The position numbers were made by a program, and so were the translations under genes. A stretch of DNA of 26,843 nucleotides, taken from positions 1 through 26,843 of the IMG/VR virus record IMGVR_UViG_3300022200_006040. One strand, written 5' to 3'. Positions 794 to 20,851 of the stretch are shown one piece after another. This DNA is from a virus. Under the pieces are notes generated by a model. That model was not told the DNA's origin. It saw nothing but the letters and a program-made list of their open reading frames with translations, and did no database searches. Position 1 is the stretch's first letter, and each line of letters starts with the position of its first letter.

Positions 794-2368
794 TTAATTT
801 AACAATCCTGCAAAATCTGGGTAAACGTCGTCAAAGTTTTCTTTGCGGTATTCGTCTCGGGCTTTATTTACTTTTTTAAAAGTGTCTAATAGATAAGTGT
901 TATCTTTTAAAAACATAAATTCGTTGATGCTTTTCCATGTATCTTGTATTGTTTGGTTAGCGTTGATAGATTCCAGCCAGTCTAAATGCGAATTGACAAT
1001 TTCTTTAACCTTTAATTTAAATTCATAAGGTAACATTTGCAATGAAAAATGATCGTTTCCAGAGACAAACGAAAATCGATAATCTTTTAGATTTACAAGT
1101 TTTTTATCGTACCATAGTTGTTGTAGTTCTGCGATTGATTGCACCGAAAGTAAACTAATTACCGGAGTAATCTCAATCTTTACATGTGGTAATTCGTTTT
1201 TAATTTTTATTAAATTGTGTTCGATTGTTTCCCATGAAGTTCCGTGGCGTGTATATTCTAACTTTTTGCCATGTCCGTCGATGCTGGCACCGACCTTAAC
1301 ATTTTTAAATTTATTCCATATTTTGGTTATTGATTCACCTTTATAATTTAAGTTAGTTAAATTTGTATTATAACGGATTTCCACATCGGTTTTATTTTTT
1401 TCTAGTAATCGATTGAGAATAATATAATGTTCGTCAATTATTAATGGCTCGCCTCCAGCAAAGTATATAGTCTCGATGTTATCGATATACGGTAACACTT
1501 TATCTAATAATATTTTTCTCTGATCCTTTGAAAAATCTAAGCTAATGTTTTCGTTATTTTTGAACAAAATGCTTTCTTCTTTTGCAATGCGACTACTAAG
1601 TCCTCCATAACATGTACGACACTTTAAATTACATTGATTACTTAAACGTAAATCCACAAATGTTGGCCTAAAATCTGTAATTCGCCCACTGGCATCGGTG
1701 TTTTTAATGAGATCATTTTTGAGATGTTGCCATTTTTGATTGTGTCTGGCCGTAGCAGGGACTTGATTATTTTTAACAGCCTGATTGCATGTCTCGCACT
1801 CTTTGCATTGCTTTCCTTCTAGCATATTTTTTCGCATGGCTCGAAATTTTTCATTGTTAATAATATCTTCGACGTTATTATTAAACAGGCTTCCCATCGG
1901 CATACTTTGCTCTGTTTGACAACAAGCATGCATATTTCCTTTTGGATTAACATACAGATGCATCCAAGGAAGTATGCAAAAAGTATCTCGAGTAATTAGA
2001 GATTTTTCATAAGGAGCATTGACAATTATATGTTTAATGCATTCGTTGTCTGTTGAATATAGTTCTTTGACAGACTTTAATTCTAGTTCGATTTCGCGAT
2101 TACCAGTAATTACAATTACAAAAAAATTTGAAATATCAATTTCTTGTAAAGAACGCTGCAAAAATATTAAAGATTCCCCCGGTTCGTCGTTGTACTCATA
2201 AATGTCGTTACAATCTTGAACTACAATTATTCGTTCATTGTTTTTAAAAGCGGGTTTATAGTATGATTTTAGTTGGTTATATATTTTAGATTTTTCTTCG
2301 GAAAGATATATTGGATCGCCAACGACATTATACGTAGATTGAATATTTTCAATTATTTCATTAAACAT
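794..2368 (-). CDS. large radical SAM protein with N-terminal extra domain and SPASM/twitch-like cysteines
   Basis: A 524-residue radical SAM enzyme. Residues 1-115 look like a separate alpha/beta domain with hydrophobic strands (RIIVVQD, FFVIVITG). Residues 131-194 hold an auxiliary cluster region: CILPW at 131, CC at 149-150, and C188, C191 and C194. The SAM-binding [4Fe-4S] motif CxxxCxxC is C246, C250, C253, followed by the glycine-rich AGGEPLI motif. So the auxiliary cysteines precede the core, as in twitch/SPASM-type proteins of marine phages that modify peptides or sugars. The start has no Shine-Dalgarno; a GTTAAATA box ends 5 bases before the ATG. Substrate unknown. Confidence 0.85.
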   Translation of the reverse strand: MFNEIIENIQSTYNVVGDPIYLSEEKSKIYNQLKSYYKPAFKNNERIIVVQDCNDIYEYNDEPGESLIFLQRSLQEIDISNFFVIVITGNREIELELKSVKELYSTDNECIKHIIVNAPYEKSLITRDTFCILPWMHLYVNPKGNMHACCQTEQSMPMGSLFNNNVEDIINNEKFRAMRKNMLEGKQCKECETCNQAVKNNQVPATARHNQKWQHLKNDLIKNTDASGRITDFRPTFVDLRLSNQCNLKCRTCYGGLSSRIAKEESILFKNNENISLDFSKDQRKILLDKVLPYIDNIETIYFAGGEPLIIDEHYIILNRLLEKNKTDVEIRYNTNLTNLNYKGESITKIWNKFKNVKVGASIDGHGKKLEYTRHGTSWETIEHNLIKIKNELPHVKIEITPVISLLSVQSIAELQQLWYDKKLVNLKDYRFSFVSGNDHFSLQMLPYEFKLKVKEIVNSHLDWLESINANQTIQDTWKSINEFMFLKDNTYLLDTFKKVNKARDEYRKENFDDVYPDFAGLLN

Positions 2369-2448: not shown

Positions 2449-2769
2449 TTAAACACTAAAACTCTGGTTGCATCCGCAGGTAGTTGTAGCGTTGGGATTG
2501 TTGATGATAAACGCTTGACCTTCTAAATCGTCTTTAAAGTCTAAGATAGCACCATCTAAATACATCATGCTCATAGCATCAATCATTAATGTTACTGATT
2601 CAGAAAGTTCTGCTACCATGTCATCTTCTTGTGGACGATCTAATTGAAATGCATACTGGAAGCCCGAACATCCGCCGCCCTGTACAGCAATGCGTAATCC
2701 AAGCCCGGTTTCTTCTTCTGAAGTGATAATTTCGTGCAGCTTTTCAACTGCTGCTGGTGTTACATCCAT
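2449..2769 (-). CDS. erpA: A-type Fe-S carrier, ErpA-like (HesB/IscA family)
   Basis: A 106-residue HesB/IscA-family protein. It would bind an Fe-S cluster or iron and hand clusters to apo-enzymes in the cytoplasm. The three ligand cysteines are present: C34 in GGGCSGFQY and C98/C100 in the C-terminal TCGCNQSFSV. The GGGCSGFQYAF stretch is more like ErpA than IscA. It is the last gene of the sulfur operon, 11 bases after iscA, with its own Shine-Dalgarno (AAGGAATAGAATATG). Having two A-type carriers in one phage operon is unusual; DsrA, with its siroheme-[4Fe-4S] and ferredoxin clusters, is the obvious client. The ErpA versus IscA assignment is less certain than the family. Confidence 0.88.
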   Translation of the reverse strand: MDVTPAAVEKLHEIITSEEETGLGLRIAVQGGGCSGFQYAFQLDRPQEDDMVAELSESVTLMIDAMSMMYLDGAILDFKDDLEGQAFIINNPNATTTCGCNQSFSV

Positions 2770-2780
2770 ATTCTATTCCT

Positions 2781-3101
2781 TTATACGTGAAAACTCTCGC
2801 CGCATCCGCAGCGATTCTTTTCGTTGGGATTAATAAATTCAAACCCCTCATTGAGCCCATTTTTTTGATAGTCTACTGTAACACCATCTAGGTAGACCAA
2901 ACTTTTAGGATCAACAAATACCTTTGCTCCGTTTGATTCGTACATGTAATCTTCGGCATTCTCACGGTCAACAAATTCCATTACATAAGACATGCCAGAA
3001 CATCCTGCTGTACGAACACCTAAACGAATTCCTTTACCTTTGCCTCTGCTTTCTAGGTAATGACGTATACGCTCCGCTGCTACACGAGTTACTTCGATCA
3101 T
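2781..3101 (-). CDS. iscA: iron-sulfur cluster assembly protein IscA
   Basis: A 106-residue A-type Fe-S carrier. Conserved ligands are C34 ([10 protein letters not shown]) and C98/C100 ([10 protein letters not shown]), exactly as in bacterial IscA, whose usual length is about 107. It receives clusters from IscU and passes them on. Its ATG overlaps the iscU stop by 4 bases (ATGA), so translation is coupled to iscU. Its low similarity to the neighbouring ErpA-like carrier outside the cysteine motifs argues against a recent tandem duplication. Confidence 0.92.
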
Positions 3102-3484
3102 GATTGCTCCCAGTGCTTGTTTTGGTAATCTTCGATTGCTGCTTTAATTGCAGATTCTGCCAGTACTGAGCAATGAATCTTGACCGGCGGCAGTGCGAGT
3201 TCGTTAGCAATATCTGTATTACGAATTGTTGCGGCCTCACTAAGTGTTTTGCCTTTAACCCATTCAGTGACAAGACTGCTACTAGCAATCGCAGACCCAC
3301 AACCATAGGTCTTAAACTTCGCGTCTTCAATCACACCATCCTTGACTTTTAGTTGAAGTTGCATTACATCTCCGCACGATGGGCTTCCAACCATTCCTGT
3401 ACCAACATCCGGATCTGTTTTTTCAAATTTACCCACGTTGCGTGGATTGTTGTAATGATCCTGAACTTTTTCTGAATAAGCCAT
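3098..3484 (-). CDS. iscU: Fe-S cluster scaffold protein IscU
   Basis: A 128-residue IscU of normal length. All scaffold ligands are intact: C37 and D39 (SPSCGD), C62 ([10 protein letters not shown]), and H104/C105 (KIHCSVLAE). The HscA-chaperone recognition motif LPPVK is at 98-102, suggesting that the phage protein still works with the host HscA/HscB chaperones. The start chosen (MAYSEKV) has GGAGGG 6 bases upstream; a longer frame to 3502 runs through that ribosome site and is unlikely. It begins 2 bases after the rhodanese gene. No IscS, HscA, HscB or ferredoxin gene is present, so sulfur and electrons must come from the host. Confidence 0.95.
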
Positions 3485-3486
3485 CT

Positions 3487-3759
3487 CTAGCCCTCCAAAC
3501 ACTCCTGGTATTGATGAATACCACCTATATTTACTGCTTCTATACCTTGCTGAGCAAGATAGTTAGCAGCAGATCCGCTACGAGCACCTGAACGACAATA
3601 CAACATATATTTGTTATTGCGATCCAGATGTACTACTTGTTGTAGCGGAACGTTTGTTGCTTCCTTTAAGTGTACTGCGAAGAATTCTTGTGGTTCGCGG
3701 ACGTCAACAAGTTTCCATCCTTCGTTAATCATCTCGCGAACTTTATCACATAAACTCAC
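3487..3759 (-). CDS. single-domain rhodanese (sulfurtransferase), GTG start
   Basis: A 90-residue single rhodanese domain. The active-site loop CRSGARS carries the persulfide cysteine C55, preceded by the typical VDVREPQEF (residues 18-26) and followed by NIGGIHQY (77-84). Such proteins carry sulfane sulfur to acceptors such as TusA. The frame extends upstream inside dsrA, but a GTG at 3759 overlaps the dsrA TGA (GTGA), the classic coupled start, with AAGGA about 9 bases before it; the ATG at 3732 is the alternative. In sulfur oxidisers a rhodanese is often encoded with tusA and dsrE; here it sits between dsrA and iscU. Confidence 0.88.
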   Translation of the reverse strand: MSLCDKVREMINEGWKLVDVREPQEFFAVHLKEATNVPLQQVVHLDRNNKYMLYCRSGARSGSAANYLAQQGIEAVNIGGIHQYQECLEG

Positions 3760-5084
3760 GCAGCGGCTTCCTTGCGTTCTTCCCACTTTGCGGCTTCCTG
3801 ATCCCATCCGTCTGTACGAACATAACTGCTTTGACGTGGAGTAGAGATCATGTTAGGATCAACATCAAGACCAACACCTTCTAAGAAGTTAACAAGTCCG
3901 ATGCGTTCAATCATCTCGCCTGTGCGTTCATGTTCTAGAGCATTCTCTGCGAAGAAGTCTAAGCATTCTTGTCCTAGGTCAGCGAGTGCTTCATAGTCTT
4001 CTTCAGTTTCTAGTTTCATAAATGGTACAACAACTGTACCCATGCTGTCACCAATCTTTAGTGTGCGCTTACCACCAACAAGAATGGAGACACCGCGATC
4101 GTCCCCAGGAGCCAATATTGCATCGCCATCTTTGCCGACAAGTTTCTCGGAATATGGGCTTGTTGCATTAAGGCAATGCATACAGCGTACACAACTGCTG
4201 TTGTCAATAGTAAGTTCATTGTCATCTCCCATACTCATAGCCTGTGTAGGGCAACGACTAATGATGTTTTCGTTGATGTATTGTCTGCCCTTGCTCTCTA
4301 CAAATGCCTTCCAACCCTCTTGGTTGATTTTAATGTCATCACGCCAAGTACCAATTACAGCAAAGTCACTTCTGTGGATTGCGTTCATGCAGTCATTTGG
4401 ACAACCGCTTACCTTTACTTTAAACTTGTAAGGTAGTGCAGGTCTGTGCATATCATCTAGAAACTGATTAACTAGAATACGATGTGCTTTCGCTTCGTTG
4501 TGCATGCTCATTTCGCAACGAGCAGCACCTACACAACTCATACCAGTACGAACAGCAGGACCAGCACCACCTAAGTCAAAACCAATTTCGTTTAGTTCAT
4601 TGAAGATCTTTTGAACATTAGTAGTCGATGCACCCTGCATCATAATGTCGCCAGACTGTCCGTGGAAAGCAATAAGCCCACTGCCTCCATTTGCTTCAAA
4701 GGTATCAACTAATTGACGCATCATAGCAGAAGTGTAGTGGTTGCCGGCTGGTGGTTGAACACGTAGAGTGTGAAACTCAACCGCATCTGGATACATGTAA
4801 GAACCGTCTGCGTTCTTTAATTCGGTAAATCTGGGGATAATACCGCCACCGTAGCCGACAACACCTACTGTGCCTCCTTTCCAATAGCCTTTGCGAGTTA
4901 CATAACTTTGCTCTAGTGTTCCAATAACACCTTTAGCCATTGCAGCACCTTCGTGCGATCCTGCGGCTAAACGCTTGAGACCACTAACAAAACTGGGCCA
5001 AGGTCCTTTTTCTAGTTCATCTAAGTTTGGAGTTGAAATGTCCTCAACTTCAGGACGCTCACTGTTTAGTCTTGTATTGCTCAT
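3756..5084 (-). CDS. dsrA: dissimilatory sulfite reductase alpha subunit DsrA (oxidative type)
   Basis: A 442-residue DsrA, full length for the family. DsrAB interconverts sulfite and DsrC-bound sulfide; in sulfur oxidisers it runs oxidatively, in the cytoplasm. Seen here: the N-terminal LDELEKGPWPSFVSGLKRLA block, GTVGVVGYGGGIIPRF (71-86) and AFHGQSGDIMMQG (139-151). The siroheme-[4Fe-4S] cysteines are C184/C190 (C-x5-C) and C228/C232 (C-x3-C). A ferredoxin-type cluster is formed by C278 and C298/C301/C304 (CVRCMHC). Siroheme and cluster ligands all look intact. No DsrB gene is present, so it presumably pairs with host DsrB. Its start overlaps the DUF1289 gene by 26 bases. Viral dsrA is known from SUP05 phages. 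Confidence 0.95.
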   Translation of the reverse strand: MSNTRLNSERPEVEDISTPNLDELEKGPWPSFVSGLKRLAAGSHEGAAMAKGVIGTLEQSYVTRKGYWKGGTVGVVGYGGGIIPRFTELKNADGSYMYPDAVEFHTLRVQPPAGNHYTSAMMRQLVDTFEANGGSGLIAFHGQSGDIMMQGASTTNVQKIFNELNEIGFDLGGAGPAVRTGMSCVGAARCEMSMHNEAKAHRILVNQFLDDMHRPALPYKFKVKVSGCPNDCMNAIHRSDFAVIGTWRDDIKINQEGWKAFVESKGRQYINENIISRCPTQAMSMGDDNELTIDNSSCVRCMHCLNATSPYSEKLVGKDGDAILAPGDDRGVSILVGGKRTLKIGDSMGTVVVPFMKLETEEDYEALADLGQECLDFFAENALEHERTGEMIERIGLVNFLEGVGLDVDPNMISTPRQSSYVRTDGWDQEAAKWEERKEAAA

Positions 5085-5220
5085 CTCTAAGTTCCTTCAT
5101 TATCCTTAATTGTTCTTGCGGTGAGTAATTTGCCCACTCTGCAATTTGCTTCTTACTGCGTCCGCAACCCTTGCATACATTGCCTTCCAGGACGCAAATT
5201 TTAACACACGGACTTGGCAT
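5059..5220 (-). CDS. DUF1289-type four-cysteine protein
   Basis: A 53-residue protein starting MPSPCVKICVLEG. Four cysteines, C5-x3-C9-x5-C15-x2-C18, are followed by GRSKKQIAEWANYS, the DUF1289 signature. The cysteines could bind zinc or an Fe-S cluster; the biochemical role of the family is not established. Start: the ATG at 5220 overlaps the dsrC-like stop as TAATG, and a longer in-frame extension would lie inside dsrC. Its place between dsrC-like and dsrA, with overlaps on both sides, suggests co-translation with the sulfite reductase and possibly a cofactor or assembly role, which is inference. Confidence 0.82.
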   Translation of the reverse strand: MPSPCVKICVLEGNVCKGCGRSKKQIAEWANYSPQEQLRIMKELRDEQYKTKQ

Positions 5221-5507
5221 TACACACAACCAGTTGGTTGAGGTAAGCCCCCGTACTTGGTGATTGGCTTCATTGGGCCAGTCATCCATTCCTTAAACAT
5301 TTCTTTTTGGTCCTTGCCACAATACTTGGCAAATTTACGAATTGGTGGTACAACAGCATTCTCATCATAATATTCACGTGCTGCTTTAATTTGTTCTACC
5401 ATTGACTCAGTTAATGTAAAATCATCTTCTTGAGCCATTTCATGCATGATCTCTTCTGACCATTGATCTGGATTAACAAGATATCCATTACCTGTACGTT
5501 CTAGCAT
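5220..5507 (-). CDS. DsrC/TusE-family protein lacking the second C-terminal cysteine
   Basis: A 95-residue DsrC/TusE/RspA-family protein. The C-terminal arm ends in GGLPQPTGCV, with the invariant CysA at C94. Eleven positions upstream, where true DsrC has CysB, this protein has T83, as TusE does (TusE also has Thr there). So it can carry a persulfide but cannot form the CysA-CysB trisulfide that DsrAB uses. It also differs from the second copy (20308-20619) through most of its length. It opens the sulfur operon, behind a TATAAATA late box (5572-5579) and a leader hairpin; AAGGA precedes the ATG. It could be a regulator, a TusE-like carrier, or an altered DsrA partner. Confidence 0.88.
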   Translation of the reverse strand: MLERTGNGYLVNPDQWSEEIMHEMAQEDDFTLTESMVEQIKAAREYYDENAVVPPIRKFAKYCGKDQKEMFKEWMTGPMKPITKYGGLPQPTGCV

Positions 5508-5571: not shown

Positions 5572-5579
5572 TATTTATA
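5572..5579 (-). promoter_or_regulatory. T4-type late promoter box TATAAATA
   Basis: Perfect late box on the minus strand, about 65 bases upstream of the dsrC-like start. It is the only promoter signal I see before the dsrC-dsrA-rhodanese-iscU-iscA-erpA operon, suggesting late expression of these genes. Confidence 0.6.
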
Positions 5580-5584
5580 TCAAA

Positions 5585-6622
5585 TTACAGTAAACTGATC
5601 ATATTTTTTGATGTCATATAATTTTCCATCAAAAACTCTTGCTGCTTCTGCAAATCAGCATAGTAAGCATCATAGTTGTATAAAATGTTCTTGATATGAT
5701 TTACCAGATCTTGTTTGTGTGTCTGGTATGCATGCCAATCTTGAGTCCATTCTGTTGGATACAGATAGGAATCCAGATACATTTCGTTATATGAAAGTCT
5801 AGTAGGCATTAACGGAACAGTTTTGTTGAATACTGCTTCGACCATGCTGATCCCAAAGTTTTCGTGTTTATTAGCCGAAAAAGAAATCTTGGCTTTGCGA
5901 ATCAGTTCATAATATTCTGATTTAGAAAGATTGAGTTTTTGTGAAAAAACAAAATCATAATCAGGAAATTCTGTAGACAGGTCTTCAAAAATTTCTGGTT
6001 GTTTATCTGGAGAAATTCTGTGACCAAACAAGATAATATTTTCCTTGTGTTCCAGTGGAATGCTATCTGAATTATTGATGATGTTCAGATGTGGTTGTCC
6101 TGAATGATATGCTTTATCACCAGAAACATTTAGTATATTACAGAACAAATCACGGTGATACTTACTACCAAACCAATTGTAATCCAGTGCATGATACACA
6201 GAACGCTCAAAGGTATGTGACCACCGTTTGTCCTGAATAGTAAATCCCAGAATATCTGTCTTATCATATGAACCTGCATGCCAGATTCCGTGAATAGTTA
6301 CTGGAATACCCAACAACTCGCTCATGTATCTGACCTGAATGATACCTGTGTTCCATGAATCAGTAAACAAAAAAACGTCATTGGGTTTGATTTCACCACG
6401 ACTAAACATTTGTGCAATGGTATTGATTTGGTTGTTTTTCCAAACATTAGTGATTGCAAAATCTAAAAATGCACCAGCGGTTGTGCCAGTTTGCACACCG
6501 CCGTCAATGGTAACCACTTCTATGTTAGGTCTGTGCTTTTTGATTTCTTCTGGAATTGCAGTATACCATTGCGCAGTATATCGTTGTTCAATGGGCTCTA
6601 GAGCTACGTGGTAAATCGTCAT
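5585..6622 (-). CDS. GT-B-type glycosyltransferase
   Basis: A 345-residue protein with the C-terminal GT4-like signature: FGHRISPDKQPE (about 199-210) and ANKHENFGISMVEAVFNKTVPLMP (about 250-273), where the E-x7-E element binds the nucleotide-sugar donor. The N-terminal half (VFLFTDSWNTG, HGIWHAGSYD) would form the acceptor domain. The gene overlaps the nucleotidyltransferase-cupin gene by 4 bases (ATGA), so the two are coupled; together they suggest making and attaching an activated sugar, perhaps to virion proteins, DNA or host surface glycans. Acceptor unknown. Confidence 0.8.
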   Translation of the reverse strand: MTIYHVALEPIEQRYTAQWYTAIPEEIKKHRPNIEVVTIDGGVQTGTTAGAFLDFAITNVWKNNQINTIAQMFSRGEIKPNDVFLFTDSWNTGIIQVRYMSELLGIPVTIHGIWHAGSYDKTDILGFTIQDKRWSHTFERSVYHALDYNWFGSKYHRDLFCNILNVSGDKAYHSGQPHLNIINNSDSIPLEHKENIILFGHRISPDKQPEIFEDLSTEFPDYDFVFSQKLNLSKSEYYELIRKAKISFSANKHENFGISMVEAVFNKTVPLMPTRLSYNEMYLDSYLYPTEWTQDWHAYQTHKQDLVNHIKNILYNYDAYYADLQKQQEFLMENYMTSKNMISLL

Positions 6623-7392
6623 TGTCTTTCAATATCCTCTTCTACACAATTCTCACCATACTGGATCTCCACAATACGACAAGGAACATCATATGGGTTA
6701 GTTAATTGGTGCCATTCTCCGATTGGAACATGATATTCTTGGTGTACTGATAGCTGTTTTGCAGGCATACTGTATCCATTGGCCAATGCGCTGTTGACAA
6801 CGCATCGACCTTCACTCACGATCCAATATTCAGCACGCTGAAAGTGTCGTTGAAATGATAAAGATTTTCCTGGATCCACTGTTAGTTCTTTAACCTTTAG
6901 TCCAGGTATCTCATGCAACACTCGATAATAACCCCACTGGCGATCTGTTTTGGGTGATTTCCAATCCTGAAGAATCCAAGAACTTGAATTTGCCTTGTCT
7001 TCACCACCAACGCCAAACACAAATTCAACTTCTTCAAATACCATCTCGGGGATATTATCTTTGGTGCGATCTCCACCATTGGCAAAAATTACACCATCGA
7101 ACGGAATCCAATGTCCACCATGGTTTTTGACACCAAGTGCGTATTCAATTGCTTTGCAAGCAGATCCATCTGAATCGTCAAATTCAATGACTTCATCAAC
7201 ACATTCTAGTGCTTGAACAATTGCAGCTCGCTCTGTCCAGGGCATGAAGTAACGTCCTTTTTTACGATCGAGCCAATCGTCTGAATTTACACCTACAATT
7301 AAGTACGCACCCAGCTCTTTTGCTGCTTCTAGATAACGGATATGTCCGCTGTGAATCGGATCAAATCCACCCGTGGCAACCACAATCTTCAT
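6619..7392 (-). CDS. nucleotidyltransferase (HxGH) fused to a cupin
   Basis: A 257-residue two-domain protein. Residues 1-150 are a cytidylyltransferase-like domain: GGFDPIHSGH (8-17) with the catalytic HxGH (H14, H17), as in RfaE/TagD-type enzymes that make NDP- or CDP-activated precursors. Residues 160-250 look like the C-terminal cupin of type II mannose-6-phosphate isomerase (GKSLSFQRHFQRAEYWIVSEG, then VPIGEWHQLTNP). The predicted job is sugar or polyol activation plus isomerisation for the coupled glycosyltransferase. It has a strong Shine-Dalgarno (AAAGGAGATCTATATG) and a sigma70 promoter at 7420-7448, so the pair is probably early. Confidence 0.82.
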   Translation of the reverse strand: MKIVVATGGFDPIHSGHIRYLEAAKELGAYLIVGVNSDDWLDRKKGRYFMPWTERAAIVQALECVDEVIEFDDSDGSACKAIEYALGVKNHGGHWIPFDGVIFANGGDRTKDNIPEMVFEEVEFVFGVGGEDKANSSSWILQDWKSPKTDRQWGYYRVLHEIPGLKVKELTVDPGKSLSFQRHFQRAEYWIVSEGRCVVNSALANGYSMPAKQLSVHQEYHVPIGEWHQLTNPYDVPCRIVEIQYGENCVEEDIERQ

Positions 7393-11517: not shown

Positions 11518-12054
11518 TTATTTAGCAATACCTAAATAATTCATGACATTTTCTGGCGAACTTTCGCCATAAGGATCCGGGTTGTCTGCGGTAGCATCTG
11601 GTTCAACAAATGCTTTTTCAACAACACCGTCCTTGATAACAACAGCAAAACGCTTTGAACGCTTACCAAAGCCAAGTTGGCTAAAGTCAGCAAGGCGGCC
11701 AAGTGCATCAGCAAACTCGCCGTTGCCGTCTGGCAGAACCTTAACATTCTGGATACCCAAAAAGTCTGCCCATGCATTCATAACAAAGCCGTCGTTAACG
11801 CTTGCTACATAAATTTCATCAATACCAGCATCGCGAATCTTGAAATAGTTATTTTCAAAACCAGGCAACTGATAAGTTGAACAAGTTGGTGTATACGCAC
11901 CTGGCAAACTAAACACTACTACACGCTTACCACCAAAAAGGTCCTTAGTAGTCTTGTGTACAAATTCGCCACCGATTGGGCAACCACCATCACCGGGAGG
12001 CAAATCGCCTTCTCGGTAATAAAAAGTGATGTCTGGAATACGAGTTCCTTCCAT
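11518..12054 (-). CDS. peroxiredoxin (Prx5/type II family)
   Basis: A 178-residue thiol peroxidase. The active-site motif PGAYTPTCS places the peroxidatic cysteine at C58 with T55; the conserved basic segment GKRSKRFAVV follows later. The sequence resembles the Prx5/PrxGrx group, which reduces H2O2 and alkyl hydroperoxides using glutathione or glutaredoxin. It has a strong Shine-Dalgarno (AAGGAGATAAAACAATG). A second cysteine, C25 (GDGGCPIGGE), could be a resolving or metal-binding residue. In a sulfur-oxidising host, protection of the oxygen-sensitive Fe-S enzymes during infection is a plausible role. Confidence 0.92.
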   Translation of the reverse strand: MEGTRIPDITFYYREGDLPPGDGGCPIGGEFVHKTTKDLFGGKRVVVFSLPGAYTPTCSTYQLPGFENNYFKIRDAGIDEIYVASVNDGFVMNAWADFLGIQNVKVLPDGNGEFADALGRLADFSQLGFGKRSKRFAVVIKDGVVEKAFVEPDATADNPDPYGESSPENVMNYLGIAK

Positions 12055-20307: not shown

Positions 20308-20619
20308 TTAAATACATCCTGTTGGTTTTGGTAAACCTGCAATCTTACATCCTTGCTTACCAGGACCATATGGGAATAGTTCATAAAGATATTTGCTTGT
20401 GCCAAATTCTTTGCCAAACTTCTTACCAACTGCTTTAGTCAGTACACGTACTGCTGGAGCAATTTGATATTCATCATAGTACTCGCGTAGGAAATTGATA
20501 ATATCCCAGTGTGCGTCCGTTAATTCTAAATTCTCACCTGCTGCTAGTTCTTTAGCAATTTCTGGTGTCCAATCATTGATGTTTACGAGGAAACCCTCTT
20601 CGTCTACTGCATAACTCAT
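20308..20619 (-). CDS. dsrC: DsrC with both redox cysteines
   Basis: A 103-residue DsrC of normal length. The C-terminal arm GPGKQGCKIAGLPKPTGCI carries CysB (C91) and CysA (C102), the pair that forms the DsrC trisulfide, the substrate or product of DsrAB. The helix region KYLYELFPYGPGKQ is also canonical. It should carry sulfur from TusA/DsrEFH to DsrAB in the cytoplasm. It sits 10 bases after tusA, with a Shine-Dalgarno (AAGGAGATAACAATG) and a terminator right after it. It is about 15 kb from dsrA and is the functional-looking copy, in contrast to the one-cysteine copy at 5220-5507. Confidence 0.96.
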   Translation of the reverse strand: MSYAVDEEGFLVNINDWTPEIAKELAAGENLELTDAHWDIINFLREYYDEYQIAPAVRVLTKAVGKKFGKEFGTSKYLYELFPYGPGKQGCKIAGLPKPTGCI

Positions 20620-20629
20620 TGTTATCTCC

Positions 20630-20851
20630 TTATGCTTTTTTAATTAAAAATTTAAATTTGCCATCTGCTTCTGCTGACTCTACTAAAGTATTACCAGTTT
20701 GATTACAAAAAGCATCAAAATCTTTAACTGATCCGGGGTCAGTAGCAATAACTTCTAGTACTTGACCTGATTCTAAACCTGCTAATGTTTTCTTAGCACG
20801 TAGTATTGGTAGAGGACAATTTAGTCCTGTCGCGTCTAACTGCGCATCCAT
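20630..20851 (-). CDS. tusA: sulfur carrier protein TusA
   Basis: A 73-residue TusA/SirA-family protein. LDATGLNCPLPILRAK contains the CPxP motif with the persulfide cysteine C12, followed by GQVLEVIATDPGSVKDF, typical of TusA. In sulfur oxidisers TusA takes sulfur from a rhodanese and gives it to DsrEFH/DsrC; in other bacteria it serves tRNA thiolation. It directly precedes true dsrC, supporting the sulfur-oxidation role; with twelve phage tRNAs, thiolation is also possible. Ribosome site AGAGAGG upstream; a terminator hairpin lies 21 bases before the start. Confidence 0.95.
   Translation of the reverse strand: MDAQLDATGLNCPLPILRAKKTLAGLESGQVLEVIATDPGSVKDFDAFCNQTGNTLVESAEADGKFKFLIKKA

Follow-up and report, generated by a model that had tools for sequence, protein, structure and literature searches.

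The DNA analyzed here (the window) is a 26,843-base virus record of IMG/VR (IMGVR_UViG_3300022200_006040), a linear fragment. Its minus strand carries a tightly packed seven-gene operon in which dsrA, the gene for the alpha subunit of a reverse-type dissimilatory sulfite reductase, is joined to genes for iron-sulfur (Fe-S) cluster carriers. Read from position 5507 to 2449, the order is DsrC/TusE-like protein, DUF1289 protein, DsrA, rhodanese, IscU, IscA and ErpA. Other loci are denoted below by L numbers.

Results

Gene content of the operon

The first gene encodes a 95-amino-acid DsrC/TusE-like protein with a single C-terminal cysteine (5220..5507; TIGR03342 66.8 bits, cut-off 53.5; PF04358 1.7e-21). 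It is followed by a small cysteine-rich DUF1289 protein of 53 amino acids (5059..5220, searched as 5059-5217; PF06945 57.2 bits, cut-off 27, 1.5e-15), whose start at 5220 gives an overlap of 1 nucleotide (nt). DsrA itself (442 amino acids, 3756..5084; TIGR02064 515 bits, cut-off 392.85) overlaps the DUF1289 gene by 26 nt, and its stop overlaps by 4 nt the GTG start of a single-domain rhodanese with a CRSGAR loop (3487..3759; PF00581 44.8 bits, cut-off 22.2, 1.8e-11). After a 2-nt gap comes the IscU scaffold (128 amino acids, 3098..3484; TIGR01999 212.5 bits, cut-off 192.4), overlapping by 4 nt with the A-type carrier IscA (2781..3101; TIGR02011 162.1 bits, cut-off 150.6), and the A-type carrier ErpA (2449..2769; NF010147 131.7 bits, cut-off 117) follows at 11 nt, the largest gap in the operon. 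Five of the proteins exceed NCBIfam curated cut-offs, DUF1289 and rhodanese exceed the Pfam gathering score, and all seven frames are intact from a start codon to one stop; this bears out an initial annotation of the sequence, which had described seven overlapping or near-touching genes at 2449-5507. A radical SAM/SPASM protein of 524 amino acids (794..2368, minus strand; PF13186 and PF04055 over cut-off) is encoded 80 nt downstream of erpA and is a possible further operon member.

The window DsrA retains the CX5C and CX3C motifs and the ferredoxin-domain cysteines; both the siroheme/[4Fe-4S] cysteines and those of the ferredoxin domain are invariant in an alignment of nine phage DsrA. IscU carries the chaperone motif LPPVK, as annotated. 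The first gene had been called dsrC-like, and its profile match does place it in the DsrC/TusE superfamily; of the two C-terminal cysteines that distinguish DsrC proper it has only the penultimate one, and against the TusE model NF008562 it reaches 39.9 bits (cut-off 191). Judged by these features it is a TusE-like member of the superfamily and not DsrC proper; a DsrC with both cysteines lies outside the operon (20308-20619). In another phage a DUF1289 gene stands directly behind iscU (L150:6001-6532), a hint that DUF1289 is tied to Fe-S metabolism.

The profile search found no DsrB over cut-off in the 26,843-nt window, a statement that holds for this fragment, and no window open reading frame (ORF) matches the ferredoxin of L006. 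IscS-type Aminotran_5 (PF00266) was found in none of 12 phage records searched, the window included, so that none of these fragments holds a complete isc system, as defined by the presence of IscS. DsrB, IscS and ferredoxin had likewise been listed as missing in the initial annotation, and the set accordingly described as a supplement to host machinery.

Phage origin and selection

The operon sits on a phage genome. Phage exonuclease, virion-protein and HNH families are matched elsewhere in the window, and relatives of its DsrA with 89-91% identity (L002-L005) are found on T4-like contigs. Profile matches in L005, L004 and L002 comprise a phage single-strand-binding protein (which we take to be gp32-like), a DNA helicase loader (presumably gp59-like), a PhoH-like protein and a tail-tube protein.

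Phage DsrA is under strong purifying selection. The ratio of nonsynonymous to synonymous substitution (dN/dS) is 0.056-0.077 in six pairs with 0.47-0.69 synonymous differences per site, dS between the window and its relatives being 1.5-1.9. Between L002 and L005 the ratio is 0.06 for IscU, 0.03 for ErpA and 0.10 for rhodanese; against the window, IscU substitutions are saturated and ErpA gives 0.17 (with L002). Moreover, of the 155 alignment columns with a conservation of 97% or more among 77 bacterial sequences, the window DsrA keeps 154. Deviations occur at up to 11 of these columns in bacterial DsrA themselves, at 0-2 in 24 of 25 phage DsrA, and at 9 in L275. Intact frames, T4-like relatives and purifying selection speak against a decayed bacterial fragment or a genomic island, which the initial annotation had raised as the opposing possibilities, and together with the IMG/VR record and the phage families they lead us to reject a bacterial island or contamination.

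Linkage of dsrA with Fe-S genes

Viral dsrA loci came from two overlapping DsrA scans of viral contigs (11 and 30), with L174 added through a gp32 scan and L273-L275 through a DsrB scan. There were 36 phage loci including the window, 24 of them informative (at least 2.3 kb beyond dsrA, or a complete genome) and grouped into 18 clusters at 95% nucleotide identity; the other 12, with less than 2.3 kb after dsrA or a cut gene, were excluded (L010, L012, L262-L265, L267-L272). Ten of the 18 clusters have an iscU gene no more than 6 kb from dsrA (the window, L002, L005, L006, L008/L009, L174, L253-L255, L256, L258/L259 and L261), and 11 have an A-type carrier at such a distance, the same ten plus L275. 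Neither IscU, IscA nor ErpA was present in any of the bacterial dsr loci used as a control (the best 80 of 177, with flanks up to 10 kb, 63 of them at least 12 kb long), 76 of which had a dsrB frame. For iscU, the comparison of 10/18 in phages with 0/80 in bacteria gives a Fisher p of 3e-9.

A second comparison was made within the T4-like gp32 lineage. Of the six dsrA loci there (L002, L003/L004 counted as one, L005, L011, L174 and L273; L271 was left out as its contig ends inside dsrA), three carry iscU, compared with none of 43 loci without dsrA in which the sequence upstream of gp32 is 3 kb or longer (p = 0.001). At all flank lengths, many of them short, the loci without dsrA gave IscU in 0/79 and an A-type carrier in two, both among the 43. 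Since iscU was seen neither in these bacterial dsr loci nor in the gp32 loci without dsrA, the linkage looks to have arisen in phages rather than by inheritance from a bacterial dsr operon.

The arrangement is not fixed. The window has rhodanese-iscU-iscA-erpA, L002 and L005 have erpA-iscU-rhodanese, and L253 has dsrC-tusA-iscU-fdx-erpA-grx-iscA. Gene order, whose conservation in viral contigs the initial annotation had proposed to check, varies from group to group, with the parts themselves recurring beside dsrA. The recurrence of these parts in several lineages and orders is our main argument for a functional link.

Three further observations concern these contigs. Between their iscU and erpA genes, SUP05-type cassettes (L006, L008/L009, L174, L253-L255, L258/L259, L261) contain an additional small gene resembling those of ferredoxins, and some add glutaredoxin or thioredoxin. 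In L002-L005, L011, L174, L271 and L273-L275, dsrA genes of at least three ancestries stand beside helicase-loader and single-strand-binding genes of T4-like phages, a possible insertion hot spot. In L266 (324-1627) dsrA is divided between two ORFs, either a broken gene or a sequencing error; its near copy L260 is intact.

Phylogenetic placement

The DsrA tree, built from 79 of 111 rows, requires 8 changes of the viral label, and supported branches force no fewer than 4 of them; gains and losses are both possible, and we read the changes as several acquisitions. The phylogeny against SUP05 proposed in the initial annotation divides the material. Window-type DsrA (window, L002-L005) is a clade of its own (99) that lies outside that of SUP05 (99). 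IscU sequences from SUP05-type dsrA phages group together (93) next to those of SUP05 bacteria, separate from a generic phage group (91; both values SH-aLRT [Shimodaira-Hasegawa-like approximate likelihood ratio test] only; the tree included about every second of 80 generic phage rows). L254, nearly identical to L253, carries the label of a phage without dsrA on this tree, which leaves the interpretation unaltered. On the ErpA tree the dsrA-phage label needs 4 changes, at least 3 forced, again as gains or losses. Its members fall at three places: some are inside a SUP05-host clade, L275 is among the generic phage ErpA, and the window, L002 and L005 stand apart on long branches, the placements of the window and L275 being uncertain because of long branches.

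Among bacterial sequences, DsrA without DsrB occurs on contigs of metagenome-assembled genomes (L053:4016-5371, L054:9986-11338, L060:7668-9083). These DsrA form one clade and look like a chromosomal solo paralog; the L053 gene is beside apparent type VI secretion and cbb3-oxidase genes, and those of L054 and L060 are near contig ends.

DsrA without DsrB

In DsrAB the catalytic siroheme belongs to DsrB and the DsrA site is structural, and a position held by arginine in active assimilatory-type enzymes is threonine in the solved DsrA (accessible part of PMC10229431). The window DsrA has serine there (HGQSGD; alignment, position counted by hand), as has one SUP05-type bacterial sequence. With serine instead of arginine, phage DsrA shows no sign of catalysis of its own, and it should need DsrB, normally that of the host. 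A dsrB match over cut-off was absent from 16 of 19 phage dsrA records, most of them fragments, the remaining three having come from the dsrB search.

In these three contigs (L273, L274 and L275, with different IMG sample numbers) DsrB exceeds the TIGR02066 cut-off at 541-546 bits and adjoins DsrA (L275:2153-4500; L274:3-2079; L273:2-1332); in L275, erpA precedes dsrA-dsrB. All three are T4-like: L274 and L275 have a phage helicase loader, to which L275 adds PhoH and an exonuclease, and L273 has a phage single-strand-binding protein. Phage DsrB forms one clade (100/100) and agrees with the conserved bacterial columns at 162-167 of 172 positions.

Another group carries two intact dsrA genes in tandem (L006:3638-6278; L258:8977-11719, and its copy L259). 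Copy 1 belongs to one Thioglobaceae-side clade (98/99) and copy 2 to another (99/98), and both are constrained (dN/dS 0.06). The two Thioglobaceae clades are on the Ruthia/Ruthturnera/Ca. T. pontius side and on the Thiodubiliella side. The simplest reading is that each copy supplies an alpha subunit fitting the DsrB of a different host lineage. A duplication within the phage was rejected by an approximately unbiased test of a single clade (p = 2e-79), a value to be taken as indicative only, as the grouping was chosen once the first tree had been seen and the analysis gave a warning of long branches.

Promoter-like signals

The octamer TATAAATA, which we take to be the T4-type late promoter consensus, occurs at 5572..5579 (minus strand), -72 to -65 from the first start codon of the operon. 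Each of the two window copies precedes a gene start on the coding strand, and in L002-L005 the octamer begins 41-42 nt before dsrA; the 150 nt in front of the cassette did not contain it in L275, L253 or L009. If it is a T4-type late promoter, its position suggests late expression. A sigma-70-like match at 5537-5508, which ends directly before the ATG, was discarded.

A second sulfur locus and other window genes

Fifteen kilobases from the operon, a second sulfur locus on the minus strand (20308-20851) encodes the sulfur carrier TusA (20630..20851; PF01206 2.5e-25) and the DsrC with both C-terminal cysteines (20308..20619; PF04358 4.5e-44, TIGR03342 154.3 bits), which is DsrC proper. The window also holds 12 transfer RNA (tRNA) genes. 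A peroxiredoxin-like gene (11518-12054; Redoxin, AhpC/TSA) possibly shields clusters from oxidation. At 6619-7392 a cytidylyltransferase-like domain is fused to a mannose-6-phosphate-isomerase C-terminal domain, beside a below-cut-off glycosyltransferase match, and two small ORFs near one end (158-722) are related to ORFs that immediately precede dsrA in L253-L255 (L253:9366-9913).

Discussion

We consider it rather probable that with this operon the phage supplements the reverse dissimilatory sulfite reductase pathway of its host, contributing DsrA, sulfur carriers and cluster carriers. According to this hypothesis the operon would be transcribed as one message, probably late, as its packing and the late-promoter-like octamer suggest. 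Phage DsrA, with its normal make-up and its non-catalytic site kept, would partner host DsrB. As no IscS-type gene was found in the 12 phage records, phage IscU would be fed by host IscS; clusters would then pass from IscU through IscA and ErpA to the siroheme-coupled and ferredoxin-type cluster sites of new DsrA, and the neighboring radical-SAM enzyme would probably be a second recipient.

Rhodanese and TusA act upstream in the persulfide relay to DsrAB. The phage rhodanese, grouped in the initial annotation with the Fe-S assembly genes, fits a sulfane-sulfur relay to DsrC at least as well, and together with TusA, the two-cysteine DsrC and the single-cysteine DsrC-like protein it may extend the relay to DsrAB along the lines of the Allochromatium pathway. 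In Allochromatium, DsrEFH passes sulfur to the penultimate cysteine of DsrC, and the preceding cysteine occurs almost only alongside DsrAB (accessible part of PMC3397948). The single-cysteine protein could accept sulfur, and would not be expected to release sulfite through disulfide formation. The benefit would be that sulfur oxidation yields more electrons while the phage replicates, as proposed in the accessible text of Kieft et al. 2021 (PMC8190135).

A more far-reaching hypothesis is that phages of sulfur oxidizers have on several occasions put together a cassette dedicated to maturing reverse sulfite reductase, consisting of a host-matched alpha subunit, a sulfur relay and Fe-S carriers, because assembly and loading of DsrAB, not catalysis, limit sulfur oxidation during infection. 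We put this forward tentatively; host matching is included because one phage group carries two dsrA of two host lineages and another carries dsrA with dsrB. The initial annotation had proposed that the phage brings the factors that mature DsrA. Phage origin, intact genes, the lack of DsrB and IscS in the window (in line with a supplement to host machinery) and the recurrent linkage favor that proposal; a dsrA phage that lacks such factors (Lau218, below) and the radical-SAM enzyme as a possible further client leave it less certain.

These interpretations should be viewed with some caution, since a number of results weigh against them. In seven of the 18 phage clusters the available stretch contains no iscU and no A-type carrier (L003/L004, L007, L011, L257, L260/L266, L273, L274; L273 and L274 are scored so though their 5' side is cut off), and L003/L004 and L011, relatives of L002/L005, kept dsrA-rhodanese and are without erpA-iscU. 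Podophage Lau218 (Lauvirus lau218, KJ183191), annotated as complete, resembles the window in having dsrA (71.5% identity) and a dsrC gene, but has them about 20 kb apart and has no IscU or A-type carrier, either in the KJ183191 annotation or by profile in L007, the IMG/VR record taken as Lau218 (its dsrA position equals that of KJ183193); dsrA carriage consequently does not require IscU or an A-type carrier. The window rhodanese is only 43-47% identical to those of its relatives and in that sense poorly conserved. The window IscU is 82% identical to that of L005 and equally 82% identical to one from a phage without dsrA, and with its long branches it has no settled position on the tree. The late-promoter-like octamer is no more frequent in the window than chance predicts (2 copies against 3.27 expected from shuffling), and the radical-SAM gene behind erpA is a second possible Fe-S client. 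Finally, IscU is common in viruses without dsrA: at least 599 viral contigs with IscU were confirmed, and in the best 80 of these loci an A-type carrier is usually close by and dsrA always absent, which means that the Fe-S module has other uses. Fe-S genes as a rare phage feature are ruled out by these contigs and by Nishimura et al. 2017 (PMC5332604). The impression that Fe-S genes beside dsrA stand out therefore survives for the linkage with dsrA, and not for the Fe-S genes by themselves.

The abundance of viral IscU also underlies the alternative that best withstands the evidence, namely that iscU-iscA-erpA serve the phage's own Fe-S enzymes (radical SAM, QueE-like) and have dsrA as a neighbor by sharing a region rich in auxiliary metabolic genes (AMGs). 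The window does hold candidate clients in its two radical-SAM genes and a QueE-like end fragment, and the accessible part of Nishimura et al. suggests that viral Fe-S assembly genes serve the host as well as many viral Fe-S proteins. We nevertheless regard a general Fe-S supply as a somewhat unlikely explanation. Within the gp32 lineage, iscU appeared exclusively in loci that have dsrA (3/6 against 0/43), A-type carriers being present in 2/43 loci without it, and the IscU of SUP05-type dsrA phages groups with the hosts and not with the generic phage group, yet the ErpA of L275 does group with phages.

Two other explanations carry little weight. One regards the genes as passive cargo, either functionless recent bacterial fragments or a bacterial island, in keeping with the nesting of DsrA, and of SUP05-type phage IscU and ErpA, among bacterial sequences; seven intact frames, the low dN/dS of DsrA at dS 1.5-1.9, close relatives among T4-like genes and the lack of Fe-S carriers in all 80 bacterial dsr loci make it very improbable. 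The other limits the operon to sulfur trafficking, where rhodanese, TusA and the DsrC-like proteins would supply sulfur for Fe-S clusters or for the thiolation of tRNA, DsrA being a minor by-product. The single-cysteine protein is indeed TusE-like in its missing first cysteine, and 12 tRNA genes are at hand, but the two-cysteine DsrC, the form tied to DsrAB in the accessible part of PMC3397948, is also in the window and DsrA is highly constrained, so that we give this explanation scant credence. Least probable of all is a self-sufficient DsrA, acting alone or as a homodimer with DsrB unnecessary, which draws on the 16 of 19 mostly fragmentary records without dsrB and is opposed by the serine in place of arginine and by the retention of host-conserved columns in phage DsrA.

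Parts of this picture have been described before. Kieft et al. 2021 (PMC8190135) reported dsrA, dsrC and single-cysteine tusE-like genes in phages and listed NifU, IscA, GrxD and TusA among proteins within five genes of a sulfur AMG; its accessible text suggests that sulfur AMGs act independently of other host pathways, and states that DsrB was not yet identified as an AMG. Viral dsrA and dsrC are in print elsewhere too (accessible part of PMC4164917), and Nishimura et al. 2017 described phage IscU and A-type carriers, with no sulfite reductase link stated in its accessible part. Compared with Kieft et al., the Fe-S genes and dsrA lie here in one overlapping operon, their linkage was tested against bacterial and phage controls, and there are contigs with dsrB and contigs with two dsrA. 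In the literature searched, as far as its accessible text goes, we found no verified viral dsrB; a 2018 lake virome names dsrB among annotated viral ORFs without analysis (PMC6109700). The operon resembles bacterial isc operons in that IscU adjoins an A-type carrier, as in the host genomes examined, but the phage records are without Aminotran_5/IscS (0/12) and join these genes to dsrA; it shares dsrA and dsrC homologs with the bacterial reverse dsr operon, which typically has dsrB (76/80 loci) and in none of the loci Fe-S carriers. Viral dsrA, dsrC and tusE-like genes, Fe-S genes near sulfur AMGs and viral IscU with A-type carriers are thus already known. As far as the literature searched extends, which for tandem dsrA is a narrow range, the overlapping seven-gene operon, the controlled linkage test, the separate placements, the phage dsrAB contigs with phage markers and the tandem dsrA of two ancestries are new.

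In conclusion, viral dsrA is a well-known example of viruses in the sulfur cycle, yet it encodes the subunit with the inactive site, usually without its partner, and viral dsrA alone should not be counted as catalytic capacity. The linkage with Fe-S genes, the dsrAB phages and the phages with two dsrA turn this into a testable question, namely whether assembly and cofactor loading of DsrAB may be a bottleneck that phages relieve.

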